A stretch of 50,010 nt of DNA, from contig JADQBQ010000035.1 of NCBI GenBank assembly GCA_016278505.1, forward strand, positions 1-50,010, in the 5' to 3' direction. Under the pieces are notes generated by a model that saw only the letters and a list, made by a program, of their open reading frames with translations, did not search any database and had not been told where the DNA came from. This DNA is from Clostridiales bacterium. Lineage in GTDB: Bacteria > Bacillota > Desulfotomaculia > Desulfotomaculales > VENG01. Positions 1,224 to 15,724 of this stretch are shown one piece after another (the stretch's first letter is position 1; each line of letters starts with the position of its first letter). Both the position numbers and the translations under genes were made by a program.

Positions 1224-1470
1224 TACTATACCTATTTAAAATTTCTTGTAAAAACTTTTTCGTTGTAAAAAAATTTTTATTCTTATAGGCTTCTCGACTA
1301 TCCACAATCATTTTTTCTAATTCTGGATCATTTGCAGCTTCCGCTGAAACAGATTCAACTTCTTTATTTGTACTATCAATAGATTTTAATTGCTTGATAA
1401 TTTCTTCAAGGGATATATCACCAGGTAAACTTTTAATTAGATTTATTGCCTTTTCTCTCGCTGTTTCCAC
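1216..1470 (-). CDS. type II antitoxin for the frameshifted RelE/ParE toxin
   Basis: An 84-residue acidic protein beginning METAREKAINLIKSLPGD, with ISLEEIIKQL and a C-terminal helix rich in E and K. Short REKA/LIKSLP-type N-termini followed by an acidic toxin-binding tail are common in antitoxins paired with this ParE-like toxin. GGGAGG lies eight bases before the GTG start at 1470, which I prefer to a GTG nine bases earlier. The gene overlaps the toxin by eight bases and has its own consensus promoter. With the toxin broken, the antitoxin may be an orphan that could still neutralise a related toxin. Confidence 0.7.
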   Translation of the reverse strand: METAREKAINLIKSLPGDISLEEIIKQLKSIDSTNKEVESVSAEAANDPELEKMIVDSREAYKNKNFFTTKKFLQEILNRYSNE

Positions 1471-1507
1471 TCTTAACACCTCCCATAGTTGGTGCTTACA
1501 TACTTAC

Positions 1508-1536
1508 AGTATATCCTAGTATAAATTGTCTCTCAA
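1508..1536 (-). promoter_or_regulatory. sigma-A promoter of the first TA pair
   Basis: On the minus strand, TTGAGA at 1536-1531 is followed by 17 bases and TATACT at 1513-1508. The antitoxin start is about 35 bases further on. The downstream sequence has short AAGTATGTAAG-like repeats that could be the antitoxin operator, by inference only. Confidence 0.65.
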
Positions 1537-1559
1537 TATTATTTTAAGAAGGTATTTAT

Positions 1560-2174
1560 AAAATCCACAATCGCCAAGTTCAAGCGACCACAGCCATGAT
1601 CATAAATTACCTATATAAAATGAAAGGCGGCAAGTGTTGCAGTCATCCCGGATATCACCTTAGTCACTACTGTTAACAGCTCTGGGTAGCATAGCCGGTA
1701 TTGAATTAATGAGCTCTATTAGCTGTATTTTATGAACTACCACTAACTTCTGCCCTCTTTCAGAACTTCAGCAATGCTACTGTACTCTTCATGCCATGTG
1801 CCTGTGGCACAGCCCAGTAATCTTATCGGGGCCATATATCTTGGCCATACTGGCCATGACAGTTACATATACTCTACCTCCTCCCGGAGGAGCTACAGCT
1901 TTCGTGGCCGTATAAATCCAGCAGACTTTCGACTTTTTTATTTATCCCTGTTGGGCATGGAGCCATATGCCTCTTGATAATATTTACACCTGGCCACCGA
2001 GTGACAGGTGCAATACGGAGGATCGATCCTGTTTTTTATTTTTAGTATGACCTTCGGGTTATAGGACTTTGATTCCGTTAAGATCCTCCGGGAACGGTAT
2101 CATAAACCAGTTTTCGATTGCGACTAGGAAATATTGCCGGGGAAGTACATCCAGAGTGATGGCAAAATAATAAG
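1560..2174. other. degenerate intergenic region with unrecognised coding remnants
   Basis: No intact gene is visible. On the minus strand two open stretches look protein-like but lack starts and families I can name. One, about 1789-1941, contains AVAPPGGGRVYVTVMASMAK. The other, ending near 2064, contains LVAIENWFMIPFPEDL. They may be the debris of mobile-element genes. A GC-richer composition than the flanks fits transferred, decaying DNA. Confidence 0.4.
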
Positions 2175-2193
2175 TTAGGTACCGGGTACCTAA
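2175..2193. repeat. palindromic hairpin TTAGGTACC, copy 1
   Basis: TTAGGTACCGGGTACCTAA is a perfect 9-bp inverted repeat around one base. Two more copies occur at 2542-2566 and 3705-3729. It opens the composite repeat block that flanks the second TA pair. Confidence 0.85.
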
Positions 2194-2210
2194 GTTCAGT
2201 GGAAGAAATG

Positions 2211-2566
2211 AGTGGGATTAAAGGCATTGCATGTGGGGCTTTGGGGCAAACAAATTTTTTAAAGCCCCGAAAGCCGATGCCCCAAAGCATCCTGCAAATC
2301 CTGTCAGAAAACGACCCAAAAGAAATACCCCAAATGTTTTCCCAAAAGGAATACCCTAAGATGTTTTCATATTAAAAACATAACTAAAGGAACGCATGCA
2401 AAAATCCCATATATCCCGGGCATTTTCGTAAAAAAAAGTGACCCTTAAGTCACGACCCGAACAATCTTTAGGCAAGGAAGCAAAAAAACCTCCTCATGCT
2501 TCTTTAAACAAGGATTAATTTTGTTTGGTAATTCTTTTAAAAACTTAGGTACCGGGCACCTAAGTT
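2211..2566. repeat. composite repeat block, copy A
   Basis: The first 49 bases (2211-2259) are identical to 3380-3428. A middle part near 2290-2330 (CCTGTCAGAAAACGACCC) resembles 3602-3645, and the last 80 bases (2487-2566) closely match 3649-3729, ending in the TTAGGTACC palindrome. The same order is kept in both copies, so this is one duplicated module of about 355 bp. No gene lies inside it. Confidence 0.8.
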
Positions 2567-2761
2567 TCCGTGGCAGGTTCGAACGAACCGTACCTGTTAG
2601 GTGCCTCTTTTAAGTCCAAGGCTTGAATAAGTGAATTGTTCAAGCCTGACCCCGATGTTTCTACTGTTCAGGTATGTAACTAGGAGACGGGATTATTCTA
2701 TTTATATTCTTATGGAATAATAGTATAATAATTGTATAAAAGTATACTGGAGGTGTTTCTA

Positions 2762-3732: not shown

Positions 3733-5631
3733 CTATTGTCGATTTATGTACTGCTGCAATATTGGATTTTCGGGTTTCAGTTTCTTAGCTAATTGTATCT
3801 GGTTTAAGGCCGATTCCTTTTTGTTGTCTTTGAAATATATGTTTGCCAAGTAAAGGTGAATTTTGATGGCATTATTTTCAGCTATTTCTTTATCTTCCTC
3901 ACTGCGAGCACTCTGAAGGGCAGCCTTTTTTAGGGCTAAGCCTTGTAATAAAACACTTTTGGCTTCACTAATTCGATTCGCTTGCAGGTAAAACTCGCCT
4001 AAATCCAAATACCTCTGCAAAATATATGCACCGTATTTAGCTCCGATAAGCAAATGCTTTTCTGCTTCCCACTGCTTTCCCTGGGCCCAGTAAAGCTTTC
4101 CTAACCAGTTTTGAAGCATACCGTCGGAAGGGCTCAGGTTTACTGCCTTTTGGGCAGAAGCAAGGGCTTTTTTTAATAATTCCCTGTCCTTTGTTTCCTT
4201 ATATTTATTGATATAGTTTTTACTGACAAAGTAATACCCCATGGGGTTAATAGGATAAAAGGAATTCGCCGTTTCGTAATAACGTGTGGAAGTAACAAGA
4301 TTAGCTTGCGAAGCGGCTTGGACTCCTTTTGCATAAAGAATGCCACTGGATAACTTCCATCCGGTCAGAATCACTAACAGGGGCAGTACAACCAAACCGA
4401 ATCTAGGACTTAGCTTTAACGCACTTCTGTGTTTATAATTAGTTTCAGTAACTGCCACTCCGGCCATGGCAAAAAATATGCCCGTCACGCCAGGAAAGTT
4501 CCAGCTAAAATCAATCCCTATATGCAGTAGAAAAGCTGTTAACCCAACAAGTATTCCAGGAAAATAATCGGGTAAACAGCCCTGTTTCATCTTTTTTCTG
4601 ATTCGCAAGAAAAGTGTAAGTAGAAAACCGCCGAATAATAGTACTCCAACAATACCCAATTCAGCCGCTGTTTGCAGATAATGATTATGAGCAAAACGAG
4701 CATACCATCTATTGCCTGCATACTCCTGGTAATAAGCCAAGTAAAAGGTACCCAGCCCGTAACCATGAATGGGATTGGATTCAAAAAGCCTGCCCCCTAC
4801 CTGCCAGAAATTCCATCTTCCTTCAACAGAAGAAGGTAAAAACGAGCCGGAGCGAAGCAAGATCTGAGATAAAAACTTATCAATGCCTTTATTTTTTGGT
4901 AAGTAAGTGGCAACTTCCATGATACTTTGGGTTAGTAGAATGGCCAATAATATACAAATAAGAGTCTGTTTTATAGCGGTTAAACGCAATCTGCCCTTTA
5001 GCCCCAGCAGCATAAAGGGTGCAGCTAAAATCAAGGAAAGCAGCGATCCTCTTGAGCCCGTCAATAACAAAGATGTAAATAATATTAAGCAAGCTGCAAA
5101 TAAGATTCGATTAGGCCTGCGCAAATAATATCCCCATGAAAAGCAAAAAACTAAAACCAAGAATATGCCCAGGGCATTGGGATTGAAAAAAGTGCTTGCT
5201 ATACGCCCGTTCTCAACGAAGAGATATTCGCCAATTCCGAAAGCAGCAATACCTATCCCTGTAATTAATAGCATTCTACCTACTTTAACAAAATTGTCTT
5301 TTTGCAACTGCATAGACAATAGAATAATTAAGGCATAACACACCAGTTGTAAAAATTCAACCAGAGTGCGGTGTGGGTTTAATGACCAGAAAATGCTCAT
5401 TCCACCCCAAAAAACAAATAAAGCATACCATAGTAAAGGGGTATCGAAAGCAATATTAAATAAAGAGCGCCCAGTGATCAGTAACCAACCCGAGACAGCT
5501 AAAAGAGCTAATAAAACCCAATAAACAACCTCATTATCAAATCCACCGTTTAACAAAGACAGCAAGCTTAGGGTTATCATTAGGGAAACAGTAATTATGT
5601 CCATCCCTTTTTTTAGTTCAAGCCCATTCAA
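3733..5631 (-). CDS. O-antigen ligase-family (Wzy_C) membrane protein with TPR tail
   Basis: A 632-residue polytopic protein with about 11-12 membrane helices in the first 420 residues, then soluble TPR-like repeats (for example SPSDGMLQNWLGKLYWAQGK and AENNAIKIHLYLANIYF). The large extracellular loop near residues 260-330 has SVEGRWNFW, HGYGLGTF and AHNHYLQTAAELGIVG, the Wzy_C signature of O-antigen ligases and pilin oligosaccharyltransferases. These enzymes transfer lipid-linked glycans on the outer face of the membrane. A TTG start follows GAGGTGA by nine bases. Lying just downstream of pilA, it may glycosylate the pilin; a surface polysaccharide role is equally possible. Confidence 0.82.
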   Translation of the reverse strand: MNGLELKKGMDIITVSLMITLSLLSLLNGGFDNEVVYWVLLALLAVSGWLLITGRSLFNIAFDTPLLWYALFVFWGGMSIFWSLNPHRTLVEFLQLVCYALIILLSMQLQKDNFVKVGRMLLITGIGIAAFGIGEYLFVENGRIASTFFNPNALGIFLVLVFCFSWGYYLRRPNRILFAACLILFTSLLLTGSRGSLLSLILAAPFMLLGLKGRLRLTAIKQTLICILLAILLTQSIMEVATYLPKNKGIDKFLSQILLRSGSFLPSSVEGRWNFWQVGGRLFESNPIHGYGLGTFYLAYYQEYAGNRWYARFAHNHYLQTAAELGIVGVLLFGGFLLTLFLRIRKKMKQGCLPDYFPGILVGLTAFLLHIGIDFSWNFPGVTGIFFAMAGVAVTETNYKHRSALKLSPRFGLVVLPLLVILTGWKLSSGILYAKGVQAASQANLVTSTRYYETANSFYPINPMGYYFVSKNYINKYKETKDRELLKKALASAQKAVNLSPSDGMLQNWLGKLYWAQGKQWEAEKHLLIGAKYGAYILQRYLDLGEFYLQANRISEAKSVLLQGLALKKAALQSARSEEDKEIAENNAIKIHLYLANIYFKDNKKESALNQIQLAKKLKPENPILQQYINRQ

Positions 5632-5656: not shown

Positions 5657-6249
5657 TCAAGATTTATTTTCCAGCCCCTTTTTGTTTCCCAGGGATAATC
5701 CCAGAACAATCCAGAAGAGGGGCATGACCGTAACTACTTCAATATTGAAAAGCCCCTGTATAAGATAAGTAGCTATCATTATAAAATACATAAACTCATG
5801 ATCAGTTTTTCCTGGCCGCAAAAAAAAGAAAAGAAACGCCATGTATGCAAATAAGGCAAACAGTCCCATGGTAACAGCAATTTCCAAGAATATATTGTGG
5901 GCTTTATCCACTGCAGTATTATCATTAATCACAATGCCTGCATAAAAGAGGTGATCCGGACCGACTCCAAATGCCCAATTCTGTGGTATTAATTTTAACG
6001 TCTCAGTCCATATCAATAACCGGTTAGACCCGGCTTGGCCCTCCAGGTGGGAGGCAGATACCACTTGCCGGGAATACTAAAGGCCCGCTTGTAAATAATA
6101 CCGCCCTTGGCCGGTGCTAGCATGATGGTTACTAGAAGAAGAATTATAACAACTGGGATTAAAGGTTTCCTTTTATCAGAAATTCTTATAAAACTGGTGT
6201 AGTATACTAAAAAATCTTGATATCTTGAGTTTTGAGTATCTAAATTTGT
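5657..6249 (-). pseudogene. remnant of a second O-antigen ligase-family gene
   Basis: The readable part at 5657-6064 is a Wzy_C C-terminal half (SNRLLIWTETLKLIP, GVGPDHLF, DKAHNIFLEIAVTMG) with two or three membrane helices. Just upstream, in another frame from 6249, comes a helix (PLIPVVIILLLVTIMLAP) ending GGIIYKRAFSIPGK, which joins naturally to the GTG-started part if one base is shifted near 6064. No start codon or N-terminal helices exist: the open stretch begins after a stop at 6250, close to the pilA terminator. It is a 5'-truncated, frameshifted paralogue of the gene downstream. Confidence 0.75.
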
Positions 6250-6380: not shown

Positions 6381-6695
6381 TTAATGTGTCGCTACCGGTG
6401 GTTCAGAACCTGTGAGATTATATCCATCTAAATCAGTCATATCCGCAATATATGGTTCTAAGTCACTTGTCAAATCATTAGGCCAATCACCGTTTTCCGC
6501 GTAATACATTTCTATTGCTGAATCAATGATCCTCAAGTTTGCCTCTTCAGCTGCATTTTCTGCTTTTTCTTTCATTCCAGTAAACTGAGGAACAGCAATA
6601 GCCGCTAAGATACCAATAATAACCACAACCACCATCAATTCCACCAAGGTAAAGCCGTCCTTCTTCTTTAAAGCCTTAGCTAGCTTATAAAACAT
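6381..6695 (-). CDS. pilA: type IV major pilin-like prepilin
   Basis: A 104-residue prepilin. The leader is 14 residues with several lysines (KALKKKDG), followed by the prepilin peptidase site G|FTLVELMVVVVIIGILAA with Glu at mature position 5, then AIAVPQF. The globular part is short (about 60 residues) and acidic, with DGDW-like ENGDWPNDL and a C-terminal VATH; no cysteine pair is present. AAGGAGGT lies seven bases before the ATG. It is the last gene of the pilus cluster and the gap of 106 bases upstream may hold its own promoter. PilD peptidase is not in this window. Confidence 0.9.
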   Translation of the reverse strand: MFYKLAKALKKKDGFTLVELMVVVVIIGILAAIAVPQFTGMKEKAENAAEEANLRIIDSAIEMYYAENGDWPNDLTSDLEPYIADMTDLDGYNLTGSEPPVATH

Positions 6696-6801: not shown

Positions 6802-8034
6802 TTATTTCATCTCTTGCAGCATGTCCCTGAGCAGTGCAACATTATCCGGTGTTTCTTCCACCCACAGCACATATTCAGGATTATCGCTGTCGCCGGAGAT
6901 GTTTCTAGAGGTGTGCAGGTTGGATACGGGAATTCCCGTTAGTTCGCTTAACAGAAGCTTTCTGGAGTGGATACTTTGATGAGAGTTCATGGTTAATATC
7001 GGAACTTTTATTATCTCCTGCTCTCTATCAATATTCACCACCGCACTCCTTACCCGCGTTTCCAAACCCGGGGGGCAGATAACGAGTAACTCTTTGCTGA
7101 ATTTGGAGCTGTCTGAAGTCAGAGGGGTGATTTCTTCTCCAAACTTAAATTCCTGTAGTTTCTTGGCGGCGGTGGCGGCAAATACATTGTTCAGTTTAAA
7201 AGTAAGCACTTTCTCTTCCCTGGCGCTGAGGCTGTCGAAGTTCTGGGCCAATTTTTGGATCTCTTCCCAGCGATGGAATACTTCCCGGTCAAAAACCAGC
7301 AGCTTGTTATCCAGAGCCACGTATTTCTCCAGTTCTATCCCGGCTTTGGCCAGCAATTCCACAGCTCTCTCCGGTGAGATTAAATAAAGTTGTAATGTTT
7401 TGAAGTCCACGGAAAGGCTGTTTTCTTCGGTGTCCACATTATTGATCAGTTCACTTACTTTTTCCAGTGCCGGGACTGTACCCTGCACGTAAACAACGTG
7501 CGGGTTTTCTTCGACGATGATGTTTTTTTGCGGAATGGCCAGTTCATTAATCAACATCTTTATTTTTTCCGCCGGAACGTAGTATGTATCGAAGCGGGCC
7601 AGTATCATCTGGTTGTAGTAGTTGGCGTCCAGTGCTCCCGGATCACCGACGACAATGGTATTATCCTGTTGTACGTAAGAAAGTTCTTGTTTTTGGATCA
7701 ATAGTTCCAAGGCTTCGGCAGCGGTTAAATTTTTGGCTTTGAAGGATATTTCCTCCGGCTCATCATCCCCCAGCAAAATGATGTTTTTACCCATCTGCAC
7801 CGCCAGGGCGGAGAGGGCATCGCGCAGGTCCACCTGCCTGAAGTCCACGGATATAACCCCACCACCGGATGAAGCTGCATGAGCGGTATTGGACAATACC
7901 AATGAAGCAAAGGGCAAATTATTTTTTGAAAGCTGGCCTCCGGCTTCGGCATCTTCCGTAACATTAAAATTACAGAACAAGGCTATAAATATGGCGACGG
8001 CACAGGTTATGTGTAATATTTTAGGACTTTTCAC
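6802..8034 (-). CDS. secretin N-domain (STN/N1) protein lacking a pore domain
   Basis: About 410 residues. An N-terminal hydrophobic signal (HITCAVAIFIALFCNF) is followed by an STN-type domain (ISVDFRQVDLRDALSALA, IILLGDDEPEEISFKAKNLT) and several secretin N1/NolW-like repeats (TYYVPAEKIKMLINEL, VVYVQGTVPALEKVSELI, LTFKLNNVFAATAAKKL). The C-terminal secretin pore motifs are absent, so it cannot form an outer-membrane channel. It overlaps the PilP-like gene. I prefer the GTG at 8034, seven bases after GAGGTG; an ATG at 8055 is possible. It probably binds peptidoglycan or pilus assembly proteins outside the membrane; the precise role is inference. Confidence 0.78.
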   Translation of the reverse strand: MKSPKILHITCAVAIFIALFCNFNVTEDAEAGGQLSKNNLPFASLVLSNTAHAASSGGGVISVDFRQVDLRDALSALAVQMGKNIILLGDDEPEEISFKAKNLTAAEALELLIQKQELSYVQQDNTIVVGDPGALDANYYNQMILARFDTYYVPAEKIKMLINELAIPQKNIIVEENPHVVYVQGTVPALEKVSELINNVDTEENSLSVDFKTLQLYLISPERAVELLAKAGIELEKYVALDNKLLVFDREVFHRWEEIQKLAQNFDSLSAREEKVLTFKLNNVFAATAAKKLQEFKFGEEITPLTSDSSKFSKELLVICPPGLETRVRSAVVNIDREQEIIKVPILTMNSHQSIHSRKLLLSELTGIPVSNLHTSRNISGDSDNPEYVLWVEETPDNVALLRDMLQEMK

Positions 8035-8566
8035 CGGCGGGCACCTCACTTTCATTGCCGGGAGTGTCTTGCTTCTCCTCGATATCCGTGGTTTTTACCC
8101 GGCCGTTAAAACCTAAGGTCATTTCTTGTTCCTCGGACCTGAGCAGTACACTGGAACTGTCTATTTCAATTACGGTCCAGGTGCCGGAAATCCGGGAGCC
8201 GGTCTGCACCACGTAGGCATTGTTTCCGGCCTCAATGACGGCCTGGTTTGACCCGTTTCCACCGGTGATTACTCCTTTTAAAACCATAAATGAAAAGGGA
8301 TCTCGCATGGTGGATATGTCACCTGCCTCCCTGGTGGTTTGGGGTAGGAAGAAGCCTTGGTTATTGGAGTCACCCTGTGTTCCCGCAGTTACATTTAAAG
8401 GATTATTTCCCTTCCCGGTCTGGGCAGGGGCAGCGTTCAATTTTAAAAACAATAACCCGGCAATCAGCAGAACGAGTACTATCCCGCCCAGGATAAAATA
8501 TATCTTATATCTTTGGAAAGCCTTGTTTATTTGTTGACGGTCCATATTAAAATTGAGCTGAGCCAT
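8021..8566 (-). CDS. PilP/GspC-like pilus assembly protein
   Basis: A 181-residue bitopic protein: a cytoplasmic N-terminus, one membrane helix at about residues 24-46 (YFILGGIVLVLLIAGLLFLK), a Gly/Asn-rich linker, then a small beta domain with DPFSFMVLKGVITG and AYVVQTGSRISGTWTVIEID, resembling the homology region of PilP and GspC. The C-terminus is charged and disordered. GGAGGT precedes the ATG. Its place after pilO matches pilMNOP order. In Gram-negative systems PilP links PilNO to the secretin; here it would link to the pore-less secretin-like protein encoded next. Confidence 0.7.
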   Translation of the reverse strand: MAQLNFNMDRQQINKAFQRYKIYFILGGIVLVLLIAGLLFLKLNAAPAQTGKGNNPLNVTAGTQGDSNNQGFFLPQTTREAGDISTMRDPFSFMVLKGVITGGNGSNQAVIEAGNNAYVVQTGSRISGTWTVIEIDSSSVLLRSEEQEMTLGFNGRVKTTDIEEKQDTPGNESEVPAGEKS

Positions 8567-8629: not shown

Positions 8630-9160
8630 TTACTCTGCATAAAATGTTCTGCCCCAAATTTGCGTATTGACGGCAGTGGAATCACCGGATACACTGACAT
8701 CACATTGCTTGACCTGAATAATACGGGGACCTTCCTGCAAACGCGCCAGGAACTGCACCAATGAGTTGAAGCTGCCCTTGAATTCTGCGGTGAAGGGCAT
8801 TTCCATGTACCCGTCGGTACTCTGCCTGGATTCAAAACTAATATGGGCAAACTCCAGGCCCGATTTTGCCGCCTCTGTTTGCAGGCGGTGGATAATCTGC
8901 TCTTCCTGCGGGCTTTTCGGTACCATTTGTATGTAGCGATCCAACCGCTGCTGCAGCCTTGCTCCTTGCTCTTTGATATTAAGCAACTGGCTAAGCTGCA
9001 TGCGGGTGTTGGCCAGGGCTGTTTGTTCGTTAGTCACTTCCTGGCGGACTGCCTTCAGAGTCGTTGCCCGGAGATGTATTGAGTAGATTAACAGTGCCGT
9101 CAATAGCATTATTAATATCATCCATGCTAATCTCACCCGTTGATTCTTGCTCTCCGCCAT
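8630..9160 (-). CDS. pilO: PilO-like type IV pilus assembly protein
   Basis: A 176-residue protein with a short cytoplasmic start (MAESKNQRVRL), one membrane helix at residues 13-30, a coiled coil (VTNEQTALANTRMQLSQLL) and a ferredoxin-like domain ending FNSLVQFLARLQEGPRIIQV, typical of PilO/GspM. AAGGAG lies seven bases before the ATG at 9160. This start lies 131 bases inside the end of pilN in another frame; since the membrane helix starts at residue 13, the overlap cannot be removed by moving the start much. PilO pairs with PilN to align the assembly platform. Confidence 0.82.
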   Translation of the reverse strand: MAESKNQRVRLAWMILIMLLTALLIYSIHLRATTLKAVRQEVTNEQTALANTRMQLSQLLNIKEQGARLQQRLDRYIQMVPKSPQEEQIIHRLQTEAAKSGLEFAHISFESRQSTDGYMEMPFTAEFKGSFNSLVQFLARLQEGPRIIQVKQCDVSVSGDSTAVNTQIWGRTFYAE

Positions 9161-9770
9161 TGCCCGTCTCCTTTCCCTGCAAGCTGTCCTGTCCGGGATC
9201 ACCCATGCTGCCGGTAATTTCAAATTTAAGTGTCGGTTGCCCGCCCAAGTCGGTATTGGTTACATACCGGCACTGCACACCTGACAATACGGGCACCTTT
9301 TTCAGTTCTTGCAACCACTGTCCTAAAGCGGTGCTGTCGCTGGAATCACCTGTCATTGTCACGCTCAAAGCGCCGGGAGACGCGGCGTCATTGCCTTTTT
9401 GTCCTGCACCAACCGATATATTGGTTAACCTTATACCGGGAGGCATAGAGCTAACCAGACGGTCAAACAAATATACCCAATCCCGGGACTGTCCCGATAT
9501 TTTTTGCACCAACTTCTCAGCCTGCTGTACCTGGTTCTGAAATTGTTTATATTGTACAAAACCCTGCATATTACTCTCCAGGGATAAGCGTTCCTGACGC
9601 AGGCGCTGCAGTTGATCCTTTGCTTGGAGGGTGGTCAAAAAGAGAGCCCCATGAACAAAAAGAATGATCGCCAGCATGCCGCATCCAATGAAAACAAGCC
9701 GGCGCTGTTTGAGTTTTTGTGCTCGCCGGGCCAGAATCTCGGGCGGCAGGAGGTTTATCCTTACTTCCAT
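9030..9770 (-). CDS. pilN: PilN-like type IV pilus assembly protein
   Basis: A 246-residue protein. It begins with the PilN signature (VRINLLPPEI), which in the family inserts into a groove of PilM, then a membrane helix at about residues 26-47, a coiled coil, and a ferredoxin-like domain (DWVYLFDRLVSSMPPGIRLT, LGQWLQELKKVPVLSGV). An extra tail of about 60 residues, rich in Gly, Glu, Asp and Ser (SMDDINNAIDGTVNLL), extends past the normal end and overlaps the start of pilO by 131 bases. The ATG follows GGAGGCGAAATA. It shares one base with the pilM stop. Confidence 0.85.
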   Translation of the reverse strand: MEVRINLLPPEILARRAQKLKQRRLVFIGCGMLAIILFVHGALFLTTLQAKDQLQRLRQERLSLESNMQGFVQYKQFQNQVQQAEKLVQKISGQSRDWVYLFDRLVSSMPPGIRLTNISVGAGQKGNDAASPGALSVTMTGDSSDSTALGQWLQELKKVPVLSGVQCRYVTNTDLGGQPTLKFEITGSMGDPGQDSLQGKETGNGGEQESTGEISMDDINNAIDGTVNLLNTSPGNDSEGSPPGSD

Positions 9771-10759
9771 TATTTCGCCTCCAGTCCCCGGAGGGCCAGG
9801 CCGTGACAGACAGCAAAATCAGGGCCCTTTCCCGCATTGATAGACTCAACCGGAACTTCCAGCTCACTCTGCAGCAGTTCGGGTAAACCGTCAACCAAAG
9901 CTCCGCGTCCGCTTAATAAAATCAAATCCACATGGGTCCCTCTTTGTTGGGACAGATAATAGTTTATTGACGAGCGAATGGCACCGGTGAAGGAAGTACC
10001 CCATGTACCGGAAAAGGATTCACCGGTGATGTTGATATGATCATCCACTGCCGTGGCTATCTCTTGCAGTGCTTCTTTTTCATCTGCCAGGGGTTGTCCG
10101 GACTCTACAAGAGAAGAAAAAGAATAGGGAATTACCCGGGAGAACCGGGGTATTCCCTGGTGTGCTAAAAGTAAAGTAGTAAAACCTTGATTGATGTCAA
10201 CTAAAACCGTGGTACCGGAACGGCTGCTTTCCGGCACCACGGTAAGCAATGCCAAAGGGGAATAGTCCACAATTTTTGGCTCCAGGCCGGCTATGGCCAG
10301 GGCGGCAAGGTTTTGTTCCAGTGTATCCCTCCGGGCCGCCACCAGTAGAACTTCCAGCTCCGGCCCTTTTTCCTGGTCAATTTCGCCCAGTAGGCTGTAA
10401 TCAAGAACCATTTCGGAAAGGGAGATGGGGAAAAAGTCACCGGCCTGAAATCTTATCACCTGTCCTAACTTTTTCTCCACAGCTTTGGGGAAATTTGCTT
10501 TACGCATAATCACACCCGGATTGCATACACCCAAAACCACATCTTTGGCGGAAAAACTCTCTTTTCCCCACAGCTGCTTCAGCGCCTCCCCCACCGCATC
10601 CACATCCATGACCACTCCTTCATCCACCGCATCAATCGGTATTTCAACCTGCCCGGCAGCGGAAACAGAGGCGGAATGGACAGTGCCCTTTAATTCCAGG
10701 GCGCGCACTGTTCCGGTATCAATCTCTATGCCTACCGCGCTGTTTGACTTAAAGAACAT
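9770..10759 (-). CDS. pilM: PilM-like actin-fold ATPase
   Basis: A 329-residue cytoplasmic protein of the PilM family, an FtsA/actin fold. Visible are the first phosphate loop (AVGIEIDTGTVRALELKG), ARRDTLEQNLAALAIAGLEP typical of PilM, the second phosphate loop (TTVLVDINQGFTTLLLA) and the adenosine motif (LILLSGRGALVDGLPELL). It binds PilN's N-terminus and links the motors to the platform. GAGGTTTTACACA precedes the ATG. A 176-base gap containing a nested hairpin separates it from the sigma-factor gene upstream. Confidence 0.9.
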   Translation of the reverse strand: MFFKSNSAVGIEIDTGTVRALELKGTVHSASVSAAGQVEIPIDAVDEGVVMDVDAVGEALKQLWGKESFSAKDVVLGVCNPGVIMRKANFPKAVEKKLGQVIRFQAGDFFPISLSEMVLDYSLLGEIDQEKGPELEVLLVAARRDTLEQNLAALAIAGLEPKIVDYSPLALLTVVPESSRSGTTVLVDINQGFTTLLLAHQGIPRFSRVIPYSFSSLVESGQPLADEKEALQEIATAVDDHINITGESFSGTWGTSFTGAIRSSINYYLSQQRGTHVDLILLSGRGALVDGLPELLQSELEVPVESINAGKGPDFAVCHGLALRGLEAK

Positions 10760-10935: not shown

Positions 10936-11652
10936 TTAGGAAATATATTTGCTTAGTTTTTCTAGGCTTTTATGTAATATACGGGAAACTTTCCGCTGCT
11001 TGATACCCAGGCTGGAGGCCACTTCGGTTTGGGTCATATCCCGGTAGAAAATCAAATTGATCACTTTTTGCTGTACGTCTGACAGTTTTGCCAGGCTCTG
11101 TTCCAAAACTATGCGGTCTTCAATGGGAAGACGAAAGGTTTCATAGTACCGACTACGGATCTTGGAAGCGTCCACTTCCTCCAAGGAAACCAGACCGGCG
11201 CGCATGGCTTGTCCAATGCCTTCTGCCCTTACATTTATAGCTTCCGCTATTTCTTCCAAGGAAGGAGGTTCCTCTTCCTCCTGTAAATATGTGTCAATAA
11301 ATGTATTTACTTTTTTTTGTATCTCCGCTGCCCAAAGAGGGCAACGAAAGGAGGACTCTTTGCGAACGTAATGACGAATCTCTCCCATTATACAATGGCC
11401 GGCGTAGGTGGCAAAGGCCACACCCCTTTTTGGGTCAAAGCGGTAGGCAGCCTTGATAAGTCCTTCATATCCGGCCTGAACCAAATCTTCCCCGGGAGAA
11501 TCGTGGCCATAAAGATGGGCAAAGTAGTACACCAGACGGGTTCCCGCCTCTACTATCTCAGCCAGGTGCTTTTGGCACCTGTGCTCAATGTAAGCGGCAG
11601 CAGCTTGTTCCAATATATTTTTGTCCACCTTTGTCCGCCGTGGAATTGACAA
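10936..11652 (-). CDS. sigma-70 family factor inside the pilus operon
   Basis: A 238-residue sigma factor with region 2 (EDLVQAGYEGLIKAAYRFDP, FATYAGHCIMGEIRHYVRK), region 3 (PPSLEEIAEAINVRAEGI) and region 4 (LSDVQQKVINLIFYRDMTQ, then TEVASSLGIKQRKVSRIL). Region 1 is missing. The layout and length resemble the SigB/SigF/SigG group of Firmicutes. A TTG start lies one base after the pilC stop, after a GGGGGT sequence, so it is translated with the pilus genes. No anti-sigma gene adjoins it. Likely targets, by inference, are pilus, motility or surface genes. Confidence 0.85.
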   Translation of the reverse strand: MSIPRRTKVDKNILEQAAAAYIEHRCQKHLAEIVEAGTRLVYYFAHLYGHDSPGEDLVQAGYEGLIKAAYRFDPKRGVAFATYAGHCIMGEIRHYVRKESSFRCPLWAAEIQKKVNTFIDTYLQEEEEPPSLEEIAEAINVRAEGIGQAMRAGLVSLEEVDASKIRSRYYETFRLPIEDRIVLEQSLAKLSDVQQKVINLIFYRDMTQTEVASSLGIKQRKVSRILHKSLEKLSKYIS

Positions 11653-11653
11653 T

Positions 11654-12865
11654 TTACATACCCCCCACGGAAGTAATAGAGGTGAAAATGGGCAGGTAAA
11701 TGGAAATCACAATGCATCCAATGGCTATCCCGGTAAATATAATTAATAAAGGCTCCATGATGGAAGTCAAAGATTTAGACATGGTTGCCACTTCGCCTTC
11801 AAAAAAGTCCGCCACCCGGTCCAACATGGACGGCAATTGACCTGTCTCTTCCCCCACGGCCACCATGTTGATCATCATGGGCGGGAAAAAGCCGCTTCTT
11901 TGCAGGGGTACGGATATGCTTTGACCTTCCTGCACCTCAATACCGGTTAGCTTAATGGTTTCTGCCACCTGTAAACTGCCGGCGGATGAACCTGAAACTT
12001 CCAAGGCCTGCAGAACGGGGATTCCTCCCCCTAAAAGCGTGGCAAAGGTTCGGGAAAAGCGGGCTAATGTATCTTTACGGAAGAGGTCACCCAACAGCGG
12101 CAGGCGAAACTTTACCCGGTCCCATAGTTGGGCACCGGCCCCGCCGGCCATGAATAACCGCAGACCCAGTATAATTAAAAGAGGAAATAATATATAAAGG
12201 TACCAGTATTCCCGCATAGTGTCACTGACTGCCATTACTATTACGGTGGGTAGCGGCAGTTCAACTCCCGGCGGAAAAAAACTCTTGAAAATAGGTACCA
12301 CAAAAAGCAGCATGGCAACAATGATAAAACCGGCAAAAACCAGGATCACCGAAGGGTATAGTGTAGCGGCGCGCATACTGTCACGAAGCCTTTTGTCACG
12401 TTCCAGTTGGTCGGCCAGCCGCTCCAGCATTTCATCGAGGGCACCCCCTACTTCACCGGCCTTAATCATATCCACAAAAATCTTGGAAAAGACATCAGGG
12501 TATGTACCCAACATTTCTGAAAAGGCCATACCGCTTTCCACGTTCCTGGCAATATCATGCAAAATTTCACCCAGAGCAGGGCTCCTTTGCTGCTTGCTCA
12601 GAGCATAAAGACTGCGGGTTAAGGGGATGCCGGCCACCAACATAGCTGCTAATTGGCGGGCAAAAATCGCCAGGTCGGCCAGTTTTACTTTTGCCTTTCT
12701 TTGCACAGCTTTCTGTAAAAAGGACTGTTTGAGTTCGTAAATATCTACTATGGTATAGCCCATATTACGCAGCCTGCCGGCAACTGCCGCCTGGTTCTCT
12801 GCTTCCATTTTTCCGTCTGTAATTGAACCTGATTGTTCTAGCACTTCAAAGGCATAAAGAGGCAC
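11654..12865 (-). CDS. pilC: PilC/GspF inner-membrane platform protein
   Basis: A 403-residue protein of the GspF/PilC family. Two repeated cytoplasmic helical domains (LADLAIFARQLAAMLVAGIP and LARFSRTFATLLGGGIPV, the F-x-R-x-L-x-x-x-L-x-x-G-I-P signature in both) are separated by membrane helices near residues 170-190 and 220-240, with a last helix near the C-terminus (SIMEPLLIIFTGIAIGCIVI). I prefer the GTG at 12865 seven bases after GGAGG, giving MPLYAFEVLE; an ATG seven codons earlier is possible. It is the rotor-like platform driven by PilB and PilT. Confidence 0.9.
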   Translation of the reverse strand: MPLYAFEVLEQSGSITDGKMEAENQAAVAGRLRNMGYTIVDIYELKQSFLQKAVQRKAKVKLADLAIFARQLAAMLVAGIPLTRSLYALSKQQRSPALGEILHDIARNVESGMAFSEMLGTYPDVFSKIFVDMIKAGEVGGALDEMLERLADQLERDKRLRDSMRAATLYPSVILVFAGFIIVAMLLFVVPIFKSFFPPGVELPLPTVIVMAVSDTMREYWYLYILFPLLIILGLRLFMAGGAGAQLWDRVKFRLPLLGDLFRKDTLARFSRTFATLLGGGIPVLQALEVSGSSAGSLQVAETIKLTGIEVQEGQSISVPLQRSGFFPPMMINMVAVGEETGQLPSMLDRVADFFEGEVATMSKSLTSIMEPLLIIFTGIAIGCIVISIYLPIFTSITSVGGM

Positions 12866-12887
12866 AGCAACCCCTCCCCCTCTCATA

Positions 12888-13973
12888 TTAAAAGGGACTG
12901 TGTTGTCTCACTACACGGGCCAATTCTGCCTGGTCAACGCAGCGTTCCAGAGCAACTTCCCGGGAGATAACTCCACTGAGGACCAAGCTGGCCAGGGAAT
13001 GGTCCATTGTATGCATACCCACATTGCGACCGGTTTGCAAAATAGTACTAAGCTGGTGTGTCTTACCTTCCCGGATCAGGTTTTTGACTGCGGGCGTGGT
13101 AAGAAGTACTTCCGAAGCCACAGCCCGTCCTTTTCCGTCCAGGCGCGGCACTAGCTGCTGGGCAATTATGCCCTGCAGCGAGTCAGCCAACTGCTGCCTT
13201 ATTTGGTCTCGCGCACCTTCTGAGAAGACATCTATAATACGGTTAAGAGTCAGCGTAGCCGTCTGTGTATGCAGAGTAGAAAACACCAGGTGACCGGTCT
13301 CTGCTGCGGTAAGAGCAATGGAGATACTCTCCAGATCCCGCATCTCTCCAATAAGAATCACATCGGGATCATGGCGCAGGGCATGACGCAGTGCATTGGC
13401 GAAGGAGTGCGTATCGGTACCCACTTCCCGCTGTTTAATAATTGATTTATTGTGTCTATGTAAAAATTCAATGGGGTTTTCCACGGTAATCATGTTCAGT
13501 GTGCGCTCACGATTAATTTTATCGATAATAGCAGCCAGTGTGGTGGATTTACCGCTTCCGGTGGGACCCGTAACAAGAACCAGGCCCCGGGGCAGATGGG
13601 CAAAATCACCTACTACCGCGGGCAGCCCCAGGTCACTCAAACCGGGTACATCAAAGGCCACCACGCGAAAATTGACTGCCATTGAGCCGCGCTGCCACAT
13701 AATATTTCCACGGAATCGGGCAGCTCCGGGAACAGCATAGGAAAAGTCGAGTTCCAGATCTCTTTGCAGTATTTCTTTTTGTTCATTAGTTAGTAAGGGC
13801 TCCATCAGAGCTTTTATATCCTGGGGCATTAGCTTGGGAGTGTCCATAAATACCAAGTCCCCGTTCACCCTGGCCATGGCTTCTATTCCCGCGGTAATAT
13901 GCAGGTCAGATGCCCCTATCTCCACACATTTGTTCAATATTTGGTGTAAATGGTACTTTTGCTCCTCGCTCAT
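12888..13973 (-). CDS. pilT: PilT-like pilus retraction ATPase
   Basis: About 361 residues. N-terminal PAS-like part (HLHQILNKCVEIGASDLHIT) then the RecA-like ATPase with Walker A GPTGSGKSTTLAAII, Asp box (TVENPIEFLH), Walker B (LRHDPDVILIGEMRD) and His box (GHLVFSTLHTQTA). The family-specific VKNLIREGKTHQL near the C-terminus distinguishes PilT from PilB. The ATG overlaps the pilB stop as ATGA and follows GAGGGTGG. It powers pilus retraction and twitching motility. Confidence 0.93.
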   Translation of the reverse strand: MSEEQKYHLHQILNKCVEIGASDLHITAGIEAMARVNGDLVFMDTPKLMPQDIKALMEPLLTNEQKEILQRDLELDFSYAVPGAARFRGNIMWQRGSMAVNFRVVAFDVPGLSDLGLPAVVGDFAHLPRGLVLVTGPTGSGKSTTLAAIIDKINRERTLNMITVENPIEFLHRHNKSIIKQREVGTDTHSFANALRHALRHDPDVILIGEMRDLESISIALTAAETGHLVFSTLHTQTATLTLNRIIDVFSEGARDQIRQQLADSLQGIIAQQLVPRLDGKGRAVASEVLLTTPAVKNLIREGKTHQLSTILQTGRNVGMHTMDHSLASLVLSGVISREVALERCVDQAELARVVRQHSPF

Positions 13974-15649
13974 ACAACCACCCTCAATACTTCTTCCAAC
14001 GAAGTTGTTCCTTTTTTGACTTTTTTCATTCCATCCTGCCACATAGTTATCATACCTTCGGCTACCGCGGCTTTCTTTATTTCTCCTGCGGGCTTACGAT
14101 CCAGGGTTAGCTGTTGCACTGCCTCGCTGGCAAATAGAAGTTCATAAACTCCCATCCTTCCCCTGTACCCCGTATTGCTGCACCGCATGCAGCCCGCGGG
14201 ACGGTATAAGGTCATGGACCCGGCGTCCTGCTCCCAGGGAAAATCATTTACGTTGTCAACATCACTACGACATATTTCATAGGGTTCTTTGCAATGATTA
14301 CATAATACCCGCACCAGCCGCTGAGAAACTACACACTTTAAGGATGAAGCAGTTAGAAAAGGTTCGATTTCCATTTCCGTCAGGCGGCTTATAGTACCGG
14401 CGGCATCGTTGGTATGCAGCGAAGAAAAAACAAGGTGGCCGGTCATGGCAGACTCCACCGCTAAACGGGCGGTTTCACGGTCCCTTATTTCACCTACCAT
14501 CATAATATCAGGGTCACTGCGCAATATGGACCTCAGTCCTGCAGTGAAGGTAAGTCCTGCCTTGGTATTAATCTGAACCTGGCTAATGCCTTCCATGCGG
14601 TATTCCACCGGGTCTTCCACGGTAATAACGTTTTTCTCACTTCTATCCACCACTTCCATGGCGGCATAAAGGGTTGTTGTCTTACCGCTGCCGGTAGGAC
14701 CGGTGACCAAAATCATGCCGTAAGGCAATTTTATAACCTGCCGAAATCTATCCAGCACTTCTGAACTAATACCCAACTCTTCCAGGGAGATTACACTGCC
14801 CGTGCGATCCAAAAGGCGCAGTGTAAGGCGTTCGCCAAAGCTTGTAGGCAAAGACGCCACGCGAAAATCGACGGTCCTTCCTTCGATTTTAAGGGACATG
14901 CGCCCGTCTTGGGGTTTCCTTCTTTCTGCAATATCCATATTGGCCATAACCTTTATCCTGGAAATAAGGGATCCATGCATGCGGCGTGGAGGTGTCAGCA
15001 TATCATGCAATACTCCGTCAATTCTAAACCGTATGCGTACATTTTTGTCGTAAGGTTCTATATGGATATCACTGGCCTTGGCATTAACCGCCTGTGACAG
15101 TATCATATTGGCCAACTGCACGGCCGGGTTGTCCCCTGTTCCTTCACTCCCGGAAGTGATATCATCCGCCTGCAGCTCATCTTCTTCCACCTGTTCAAAT
15201 TCCATATCGGTAAGCAGATATCTGTCTATGGCCGCCTCTAATTCGCTGTCCGGGGCAAAAACAGGGGTTATGTCATGACCGGTTAAAATACGTAAATCAT
15301 CAATAGCCATAAGATCAGTGGGGTGCCTCATGGCCATCACCAATTTGTCACTTTCATAAGCAATGGGAAGGGCCCGGTAACGACGCGCAGAATCAACACT
15401 CATAGTAGCCACGGCCGCAGGGTCCACAGTATATGATTCCAGGGAAACCAGAGGTACCCCGGCCCGTTTGGCAATTACTCTGGCTAAGTCATCCTCCGAG
15501 CAATAGCCCAGTTCCACCAGTGTTTCCCCAAGTAAGCCTTGTTTCCCCTTATCCTTCTTTTGTGCATTGAGGGCCTCTTCCAGTCTTTCCCGGGTTAATA
15601 CACCCTCATTAATTAAACAGTCACCTAATAAATTTTGCCCTTGTTTCAT
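13970..15649 (-). CDS. pilB: PilB/GspE-like pilus extension ATPase
   Basis: About 559 residues. The N-terminal MshEN-type domain (LLGDCLINEGVLTRERLEEA, GETLVELGYCSEDDLARVIA) is of the kind that can bind cyclic di-GMP. The motor domain has Walker A GPTGSGKTTTLYAAM, Asp box (TVEDPVEYRMEGISQVQ), Walker B (SDPDIMMVGEIRD), the His box and a zinc tetracysteine (CNHC ... CMRC). I start it at the ATG at 15649 after GGGAAGGTG; a longer frame to 15724 runs through a repeat hairpin. It is first in the operon and drives pilus extension. Confidence 0.92.
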   Translation of the reverse strand: MKQGQNLLGDCLINEGVLTRERLEEALNAQKKDKGKQGLLGETLVELGYCSEDDLARVIAKRAGVPLVSLESYTVDPAAVATMSVDSARRYRALPIAYESDKLVMAMRHPTDLMAIDDLRILTGHDITPVFAPDSELEAAIDRYLLTDMEFEQVEEDELQADDITSGSEGTGDNPAVQLANMILSQAVNAKASDIHIEPYDKNVRIRFRIDGVLHDMLTPPRRMHGSLISRIKVMANMDIAERRKPQDGRMSLKIEGRTVDFRVASLPTSFGERLTLRLLDRTGSVISLEELGISSEVLDRFRQVIKLPYGMILVTGPTGSGKTTTLYAAMEVVDRSEKNVITVEDPVEYRMEGISQVQINTKAGLTFTAGLRSILRSDPDIMMVGEIRDRETARLAVESAMTGHLVFSSLHTNDAAGTISRLTEMEIEPFLTASSLKCVVSQRLVRVLCNHCKEPYEICRSDVDNVNDFPWEQDAGSMTLYRPAGCMRCSNTGYRGRMGVYELLFASEAVQQLTLDRKPAGEIKKAAVAEGMITMWQDGMKKVKKGTTSLEEVLRVVV

Positions 15650-15662
15650 AAACACCTTCCCA

Positions 15663-15687
15663 GCAAGTGGGGACGGTTCTTGCTTGC
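15663..15687. repeat. GGGACGGTTC short hairpin repeat, copy in the pilB leader
   Basis: GCAAG and CTTGC arms enclose the GGGGACGGTT core. The element lies in the untranslated leader of the pilus operon, between its promoter and the pilB ribosome site. Matching copies are at 40327, 42599 and 49781. Confidence 0.8.
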
Positions 15688-15724
15688 TAGTCCCCCGCCA
15701 TCCTACTTCTTTATATAATAACAA

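Follow-up and report, generated by a model that had tools for sequence, protein, structure and literature searches.

In diderm Neisseria, Pseudomonas and Vibrio, the secretin of type IVa pili is PilQ. PilP binds the N0 domain of PilQ (PMC3441751), and the HR domain of GspC binds the N0 domain of GspD (PMC3169554). In the literature on monoderm bacteria, the secretin, and PilP where it is discussed, are treated as absent (PMC4471445, PMC5007114, PMC6916266, PMC6668835), and the passage of type IV pili through the thick monoderm wall is described as unclear (PMC5007114, PMC6916266). PilQ homologues were noted in 2011 in Gram-positive pil operons, including those of D. reducens and P. thermopropionicum (Imam and others, PMC3244431); that report apparently neither names PilP nor remarks on the loss of the pore in these homologues.

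The stretch of DNA analysed here (50,010 nucleotides of contig JADQBQ010000035.1 from a Clostridiales bacterium, hereafter the window) contains an operon with the gene order pilB, pilT, pilC, sigma factor, pilM, pilN, pilO, pilP, pore-less secretin and prepilin (Table 1). A type IVa pilus set (PilB, PilC, PilM, PilN, PilO, prepilin and a PilT-type ATPase) is thus present in one operon, like the PilB, PilC, PilM, PilN, PilO, PilT and prepilin of the monoderm type IV pili of Streptococcus sanguinis and Clostridia. Unlike the described monoderm systems, which have neither PilP nor a secretin (PMC6916266, PMC4471445), the operon in the window has both PilP and a secretin-like protein.

Table 1. 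Positions of the pilus genes, of the domains of the pore-less secretin-like protein and of its C-terminal motif in the window.
Feature	Position	Strand	Basis and remarks
pilB ATPase with MshEN domain	13970..15724	-	PF00437 E 2.4e-138, MshEN E 2.4e-19
pilT-like ATPase (retraction type by sequence; name inferred)	12888..14042	-	PF00437 E 9e-48
pilC platform protein	11654..12886	-	PF00482 E 5.8e-62
sigma-70 family factor between pilC and pilM	10936..11652	-	Sigma70_r2, r3, r4
pilM	9770..10759	-	PF11104 E 2e-30; TIGR01175 above cut-off
pilN	9030..9770	-	PF05137 E 2.7e-6
pilO	8630..9223	-	PF04350 E 7.7e-18
PilP/GspC-HR protein, 181 aa	8021..8566	-	membrane helix residues 10-44; HR domain about residues 91-155 (8102-8296)
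pore-less secretin-like protein, 417 aa	6802..8055	-	exported, signal-peptide-like N-terminus; Pfam STN and Secretin_N without PF00263; AlphaFold model; fold matches
N0 (STN) domain, residues 67-139	7639..7857	-	Pfam, AlphaFold model
N1 domain (Secretin_N), residues 148-212	7420..7614	-	Pfam, AlphaFold model
N1-type module N2, residues 214-276	7228..7416	-	hhalign to N1 96%; AlphaFold model
N1-type module N3, residues 278-346	7018..7224	-	hhalign to N1 69% (less sure); VIA match to GspD N3, 5w68
C-terminal N1-type module N4, residues 347-416	6808..7017	-	hhalign to N1 95%; AlphaFold model
conserved motif YVLWVEETPDN within N4	6841-6873	-	
prepilin downstream of pore-less secretin	6381..6695	-	N_methyl E 6.9e-10; GspG/ComGC-like

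The original prediction, made from the sequence of the window, held that the pilus cluster encodes a secretin STN/N1 protein without a pore domain, and the searches bore this out. The start codon of the gene is uncertain (ATG at 8055 or in-frame GTG at 8034). Pfam recovered STN in its product (E 1.1e-7, above the cut-off) and Secretin_N (E 5.1e-6, falling slightly short of it) but no secretin pore (PF00263), and the NCBIfam matches to the GspD and PilQ models were confined to their N-terminal part. Secretin_N was found in 19 of 21 relatives (best E-value 7.6e-22) and STN in 13 of the 21. An AlphaFold model made with these 21 relatives (mean pLDDT 80) showed N0 (residues 67-137) and four further small alpha/beta modules, reaching residue 416, and no barrel. 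The best Foldseek matches of the model in the PDB were the N domains of XcpQ/GspD (E 4.7e-9). Using VIA-align, we matched it to N0-N1 of meningococcal PilQ (4av2; Z 9.4, 136 aligned residues, rmsd 13.2 across flexed domains), PilQ N0 (4ar0; Z 9.0, 84 aligned, rmsd 3.1), P. aeruginosa PilQ (Z 9.1, rmsd 1.9 over 60, at residues 150-210) and GspD (5w68; Z 7.8, rmsd 2.4 over 62, at residues 281-346).

The protein therefore resembles PilQ in having the secretin-family N0 and N1 domains and in adjoining pilP in a pilMNOP order, and PilQ gave its best profile matches in the PDB. It differs from PilQ in having extra N1-type modules and no pore domain, in being found in hosts without Omp85, and in that some of its relatives carry an N-terminal LysM domain or are fused to PilP. 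It is more than a truncated secretin: extra N1-type modules occupy the place of the pore. Barring one reduced relative (L022) and a fragment, pore-less proteins have three to five N1-type modules. They are closed by a conserved C-terminal LW..(E/Q)TPD motif, with nearly all members ending 12-30 residues beyond it; L397 and W398 are invariant across the 21 relatives. No peptidoglycan-binding domain was recognisable in the protein from the window. The PilQ homologues reported from Desulfotomaculum reducens and Pelotomaculum presumably belong to the same family.

The other product, likewise foreseen as PilP-like, gave weak matches as a single sequence (TIGR03021, E 0.0012; T2SSC, E 0.0067), but T2SSC was matched by 11 of 15 members of its family (best 9.6e-7). 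Structural comparison of its model placed PilP/GspC/GspB/DotF-type domains in all of the first 12 VIA rows (Z 9.8 to 5.1; next row 4.2); the top match was the HR domain of GspC in its complex with GspD (3oss_C; Z 9.8, rmsd 1.7 over 62 residues), followed by PilP entries. As modelled, the HR beta domain of the PilP/GspC family is present. The protein is similar to PilP and GspC in its HR fold, its DPF motif and its place after pilO, and N0 of the pore-less secretin would be its predicted partner, by analogy with these proteins. Unlike the lipoprotein PilP of diderms, it is anchored by a membrane helix, as is GspC, and occurs in a monoderm; it has no cysteine at all and therefore lacks the lipobox cysteine typical of diderm PilP. 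With N0, N1-type modules and the PilP HR fold recovered, the profile searches and structure prediction suggested with the original prediction confirmed that the cluster encodes both proteins.

The host genome (3.92 Mb, completeness 100) has Desulfoscipio and Sporotomaculum as its closest named relatives, which are spore-forming Firmicutes with a single membrane. Other genomes of the window's order have copies identical in length and scores to those of Desulfoscipio and Sporotomaculum, so that the window most likely belongs to that order. Profile searches found no PF00263 secretin pore anywhere in this genome, and no Omp85 (PF01103) or LpxC (PF03331), for both of which the controls were matched. 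Hence neither a full secretin C-terminal domain encoded elsewhere nor an outer membrane of the host, the two findings named beforehand as contrary to the original prediction, came to light. This gene content supports the view that the host is a single-membrane bacterium without outer-membrane genes.

Roughly one genome in four of one class has the family, which is scattered elsewhere in the phylum. Within the host's class, the pore-less protein was found in 30 of 113 genomes, and PilP in 30/30 of these. PilP-profile matches were present in 31 of the 113, namely these 30 and G390, in which the match was weak and partial (1 among the other 83). PilP and the pore-less protein are passed on as a unit (Fisher p about 1e-26 for co-occurrence in the class, kinship ignored); since the genomes are related, the counts are not independent. 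The PF00263 search detected a secretin pore in 0/113 class genomes. PilM was found in 102 of the 113, and most class genomes with a pil system have no PilP/pore-less pair; the pair is therefore not required for every monoderm pilus.

In a sample of 329 genomes from the phylum, a pore-bearing secretin and Omp85 were found together in 80, a secretin match alone in 3 and Omp85 alone in 4. Neither was found in any of the 14 genomes of this sample with a clear pore-less form (one-sided p 0.015 for the exclusion, kinship ignored and the pore-less form having a single origin). A secretin match without Omp85 was seen in G281 (E 1.1e-13), and Omp85 without a secretin in G264, G297 and G319.

In nearly all loci, pilP lies directly upstream of the pore-less gene, often with a 4-base overlap. 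In G372 and G373 (L059, L062), the two genes are about 8 kb apart on opposite strands, and both are retained. In G047, G086 and G153, all of one genus, PilP is fused with the pore-less secretin into a single polypeptide of 539-541 residues. The genomes of L004 and L005 have no PilP anywhere, and their pore-less protein has lost N0; the two loci are close relatives, so that this joint loss counts as one event. An apparent N0 in L004/L005 vanished once both sequences were removed from the N0 profile, and a weak PilP match in L005 turned out to be the membrane helix of PilN. The joint loss of PilP and N0 fits what would be expected by analogy with the published PilP-PilQ N0 and GspC-HR-GspD N0 binding.

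Three relatives (L006, L007 and L020) have gained an N-terminal LysM domain. The reduced relative L022 (G185, 1231-2697 (+)) has N0-N1 and an InlB-type repeat, and its C-terminal module is eroded. We rejected G185 as an example of a half-lost pore: the PF00263 match of this genome was weak (E 1.6e-4), and L022 has Secretin_N and the InlB-type repeat without a pore. A diverged, deep-branching relative, L069 (G397, 1399-2622 (+)), carries about 20 inserted residues within its N0.

In a tree based on N0-N1, 44 pore-less proteins formed one clade against 18 pore-bearing secretins (support 99/94). Some diderm relatives are as short as N0-N1-pore (for example L023), which suggests that in the pore-less protein the pore was replaced by extra modules rather than simply cut off. 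Reading frames are intact in nearly all members of the pore-less family, and dN/dS was 0.10-0.25 in eight pairs, indicating strong purifying selection; one PilP pair was less constrained (dN/dS 0.5-0.6).

Based on these results, we propose that PilP and the pore-less secretin are a functional part of a type IV pilus machine suited to a cell that has no outer membrane, in which the secretin, docked on PilP, forms a scaffold or collar at the level of the wall, with a probability of roughly 0.6. By analogy with the diderm proteins, PilP would sit in the cytoplasmic membrane beside PilN and PilO, with its HR domain gripping N0 of the exported pore-less secretin. In secretins, which assemble into 12-15-fold rings, the domains that build the ring are of N1 type. 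Judging from this fold, the N1-type modules may encircle the growing pilus as a collar or as stacked rings, in the space that separates membrane and wall; the LysM domains of the three relatives suggest that in some lineages, at least, the collar may be tethered to peptidoglycan. Such a collar would keep the fibre in line with an opening in the wall and steady the machine while the pilus retracts. Its ancestor would have been a pore-bearing secretin, the pore of which gave way to further N1-type modules. Guidance of the pilus through the cell wall, which had been suggested for these domains, is plausible in view of the LysM domains, the natural PilP fusion and the ring-building fold; five small domains, stacked, may not reach across a thick wall. 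The wider reading, that a single-membrane lineage repurposed the pilus secretin by exchanging the pore for ring modules, in places with a LysM anchor, into a predicted PilP-docked conduit taking the type IV pilus through thick peptidoglycan, is tentative: we consider it possible, short of probable.

The alternative that survives best, although we regard it as unlikely, is a stabiliser of assembly that builds no ring: the N0-PilP contact would just stabilise PilN and PilO, as the dependence of PilN/PilO stability on PilP in Neisseria might suggest (reviewed in PMC6916266), and the N1-type modules would be a monomeric spacer or sensor. A module number of three to five fits a loosely constrained spacer. 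A spacer accounts less well for modules of a ring-building type that have multiplied and are under purifying selection, or for the gain of LysM in three relatives.

Less likely still, the operon could encode a pseudopilus resembling that of type II secretion, which would push proteins through the wall instead of forming a surface pilus. The PilP-like protein is GspC-like in its membrane helix and its top fold match, and the best score of the pilin was to GspG. However, the ComGC and PilA models scored much like GspG on the pilin, and the second, PilT-type ATPase and the separate pilM, pilN and pilO are as in type IVa pili.

We consider it very improbable that the pore-less protein is a relic without function, left over from the outer-membrane secretin of an ancestor; the missing pore and hosts without an outer membrane would agree with such an origin, but the low dN/dS, the intact frames, the conserved C-terminal motif, the PilP fusion and the gain of LysM would not be expected of a relic. 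That the host is truly diderm and the C-terminal module, conserved as it is, a diverged pore is scarcely credible, because the genome has no Omp85, LpxC or PF00263 and the last module, of about 70 residues and N1-type, is too short for a barrel protomer; with no barrel in the model, a hidden diverged pore was rejected.

Reviews have argued the role of PilP from the absence of PilP and secretin in monoderms, to which the pore-less family is an exception. Our literature search, to which subscription papers were mostly inaccessible, found no account of the pore-less form or of the PilP that accompanies it, nor of the fusion or the LysM domain. Together with the later reviews that call PilP and secretin absent in monoderms, this supports the claim that the operon represents an under-described variant of type IV pili. 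For the part of monoderm pili that crosses the wall, the pore-less protein is a tangible candidate that can be deleted, and the family provides a natural test of how PilP and secretin N-domains function without a pore; it also bears on the refitting of an appendage after loss of the outer membrane.

A sigma-70 family gene between pilC and pilM was also found in L001-L003; in the window, this factor may regulate the operon, or it may link pili to a programme of stress response or development. In total, the host genome has one pore-less protein and one PilP. Another PilM match was found on a different contig (G000:C30:19849-20727 (-)), and the host therefore probably has a second pil system. Downstream of the pilin in the window are two adjacent O-antigen ligase (Wzy_C) ORFs, 3733-5631 (-) and 5657-6064 (-), with a possible role in pilin glycosylation; the latter matches just the C-terminal half of the Wzy_C domain, as would a duplicated or broken gene.
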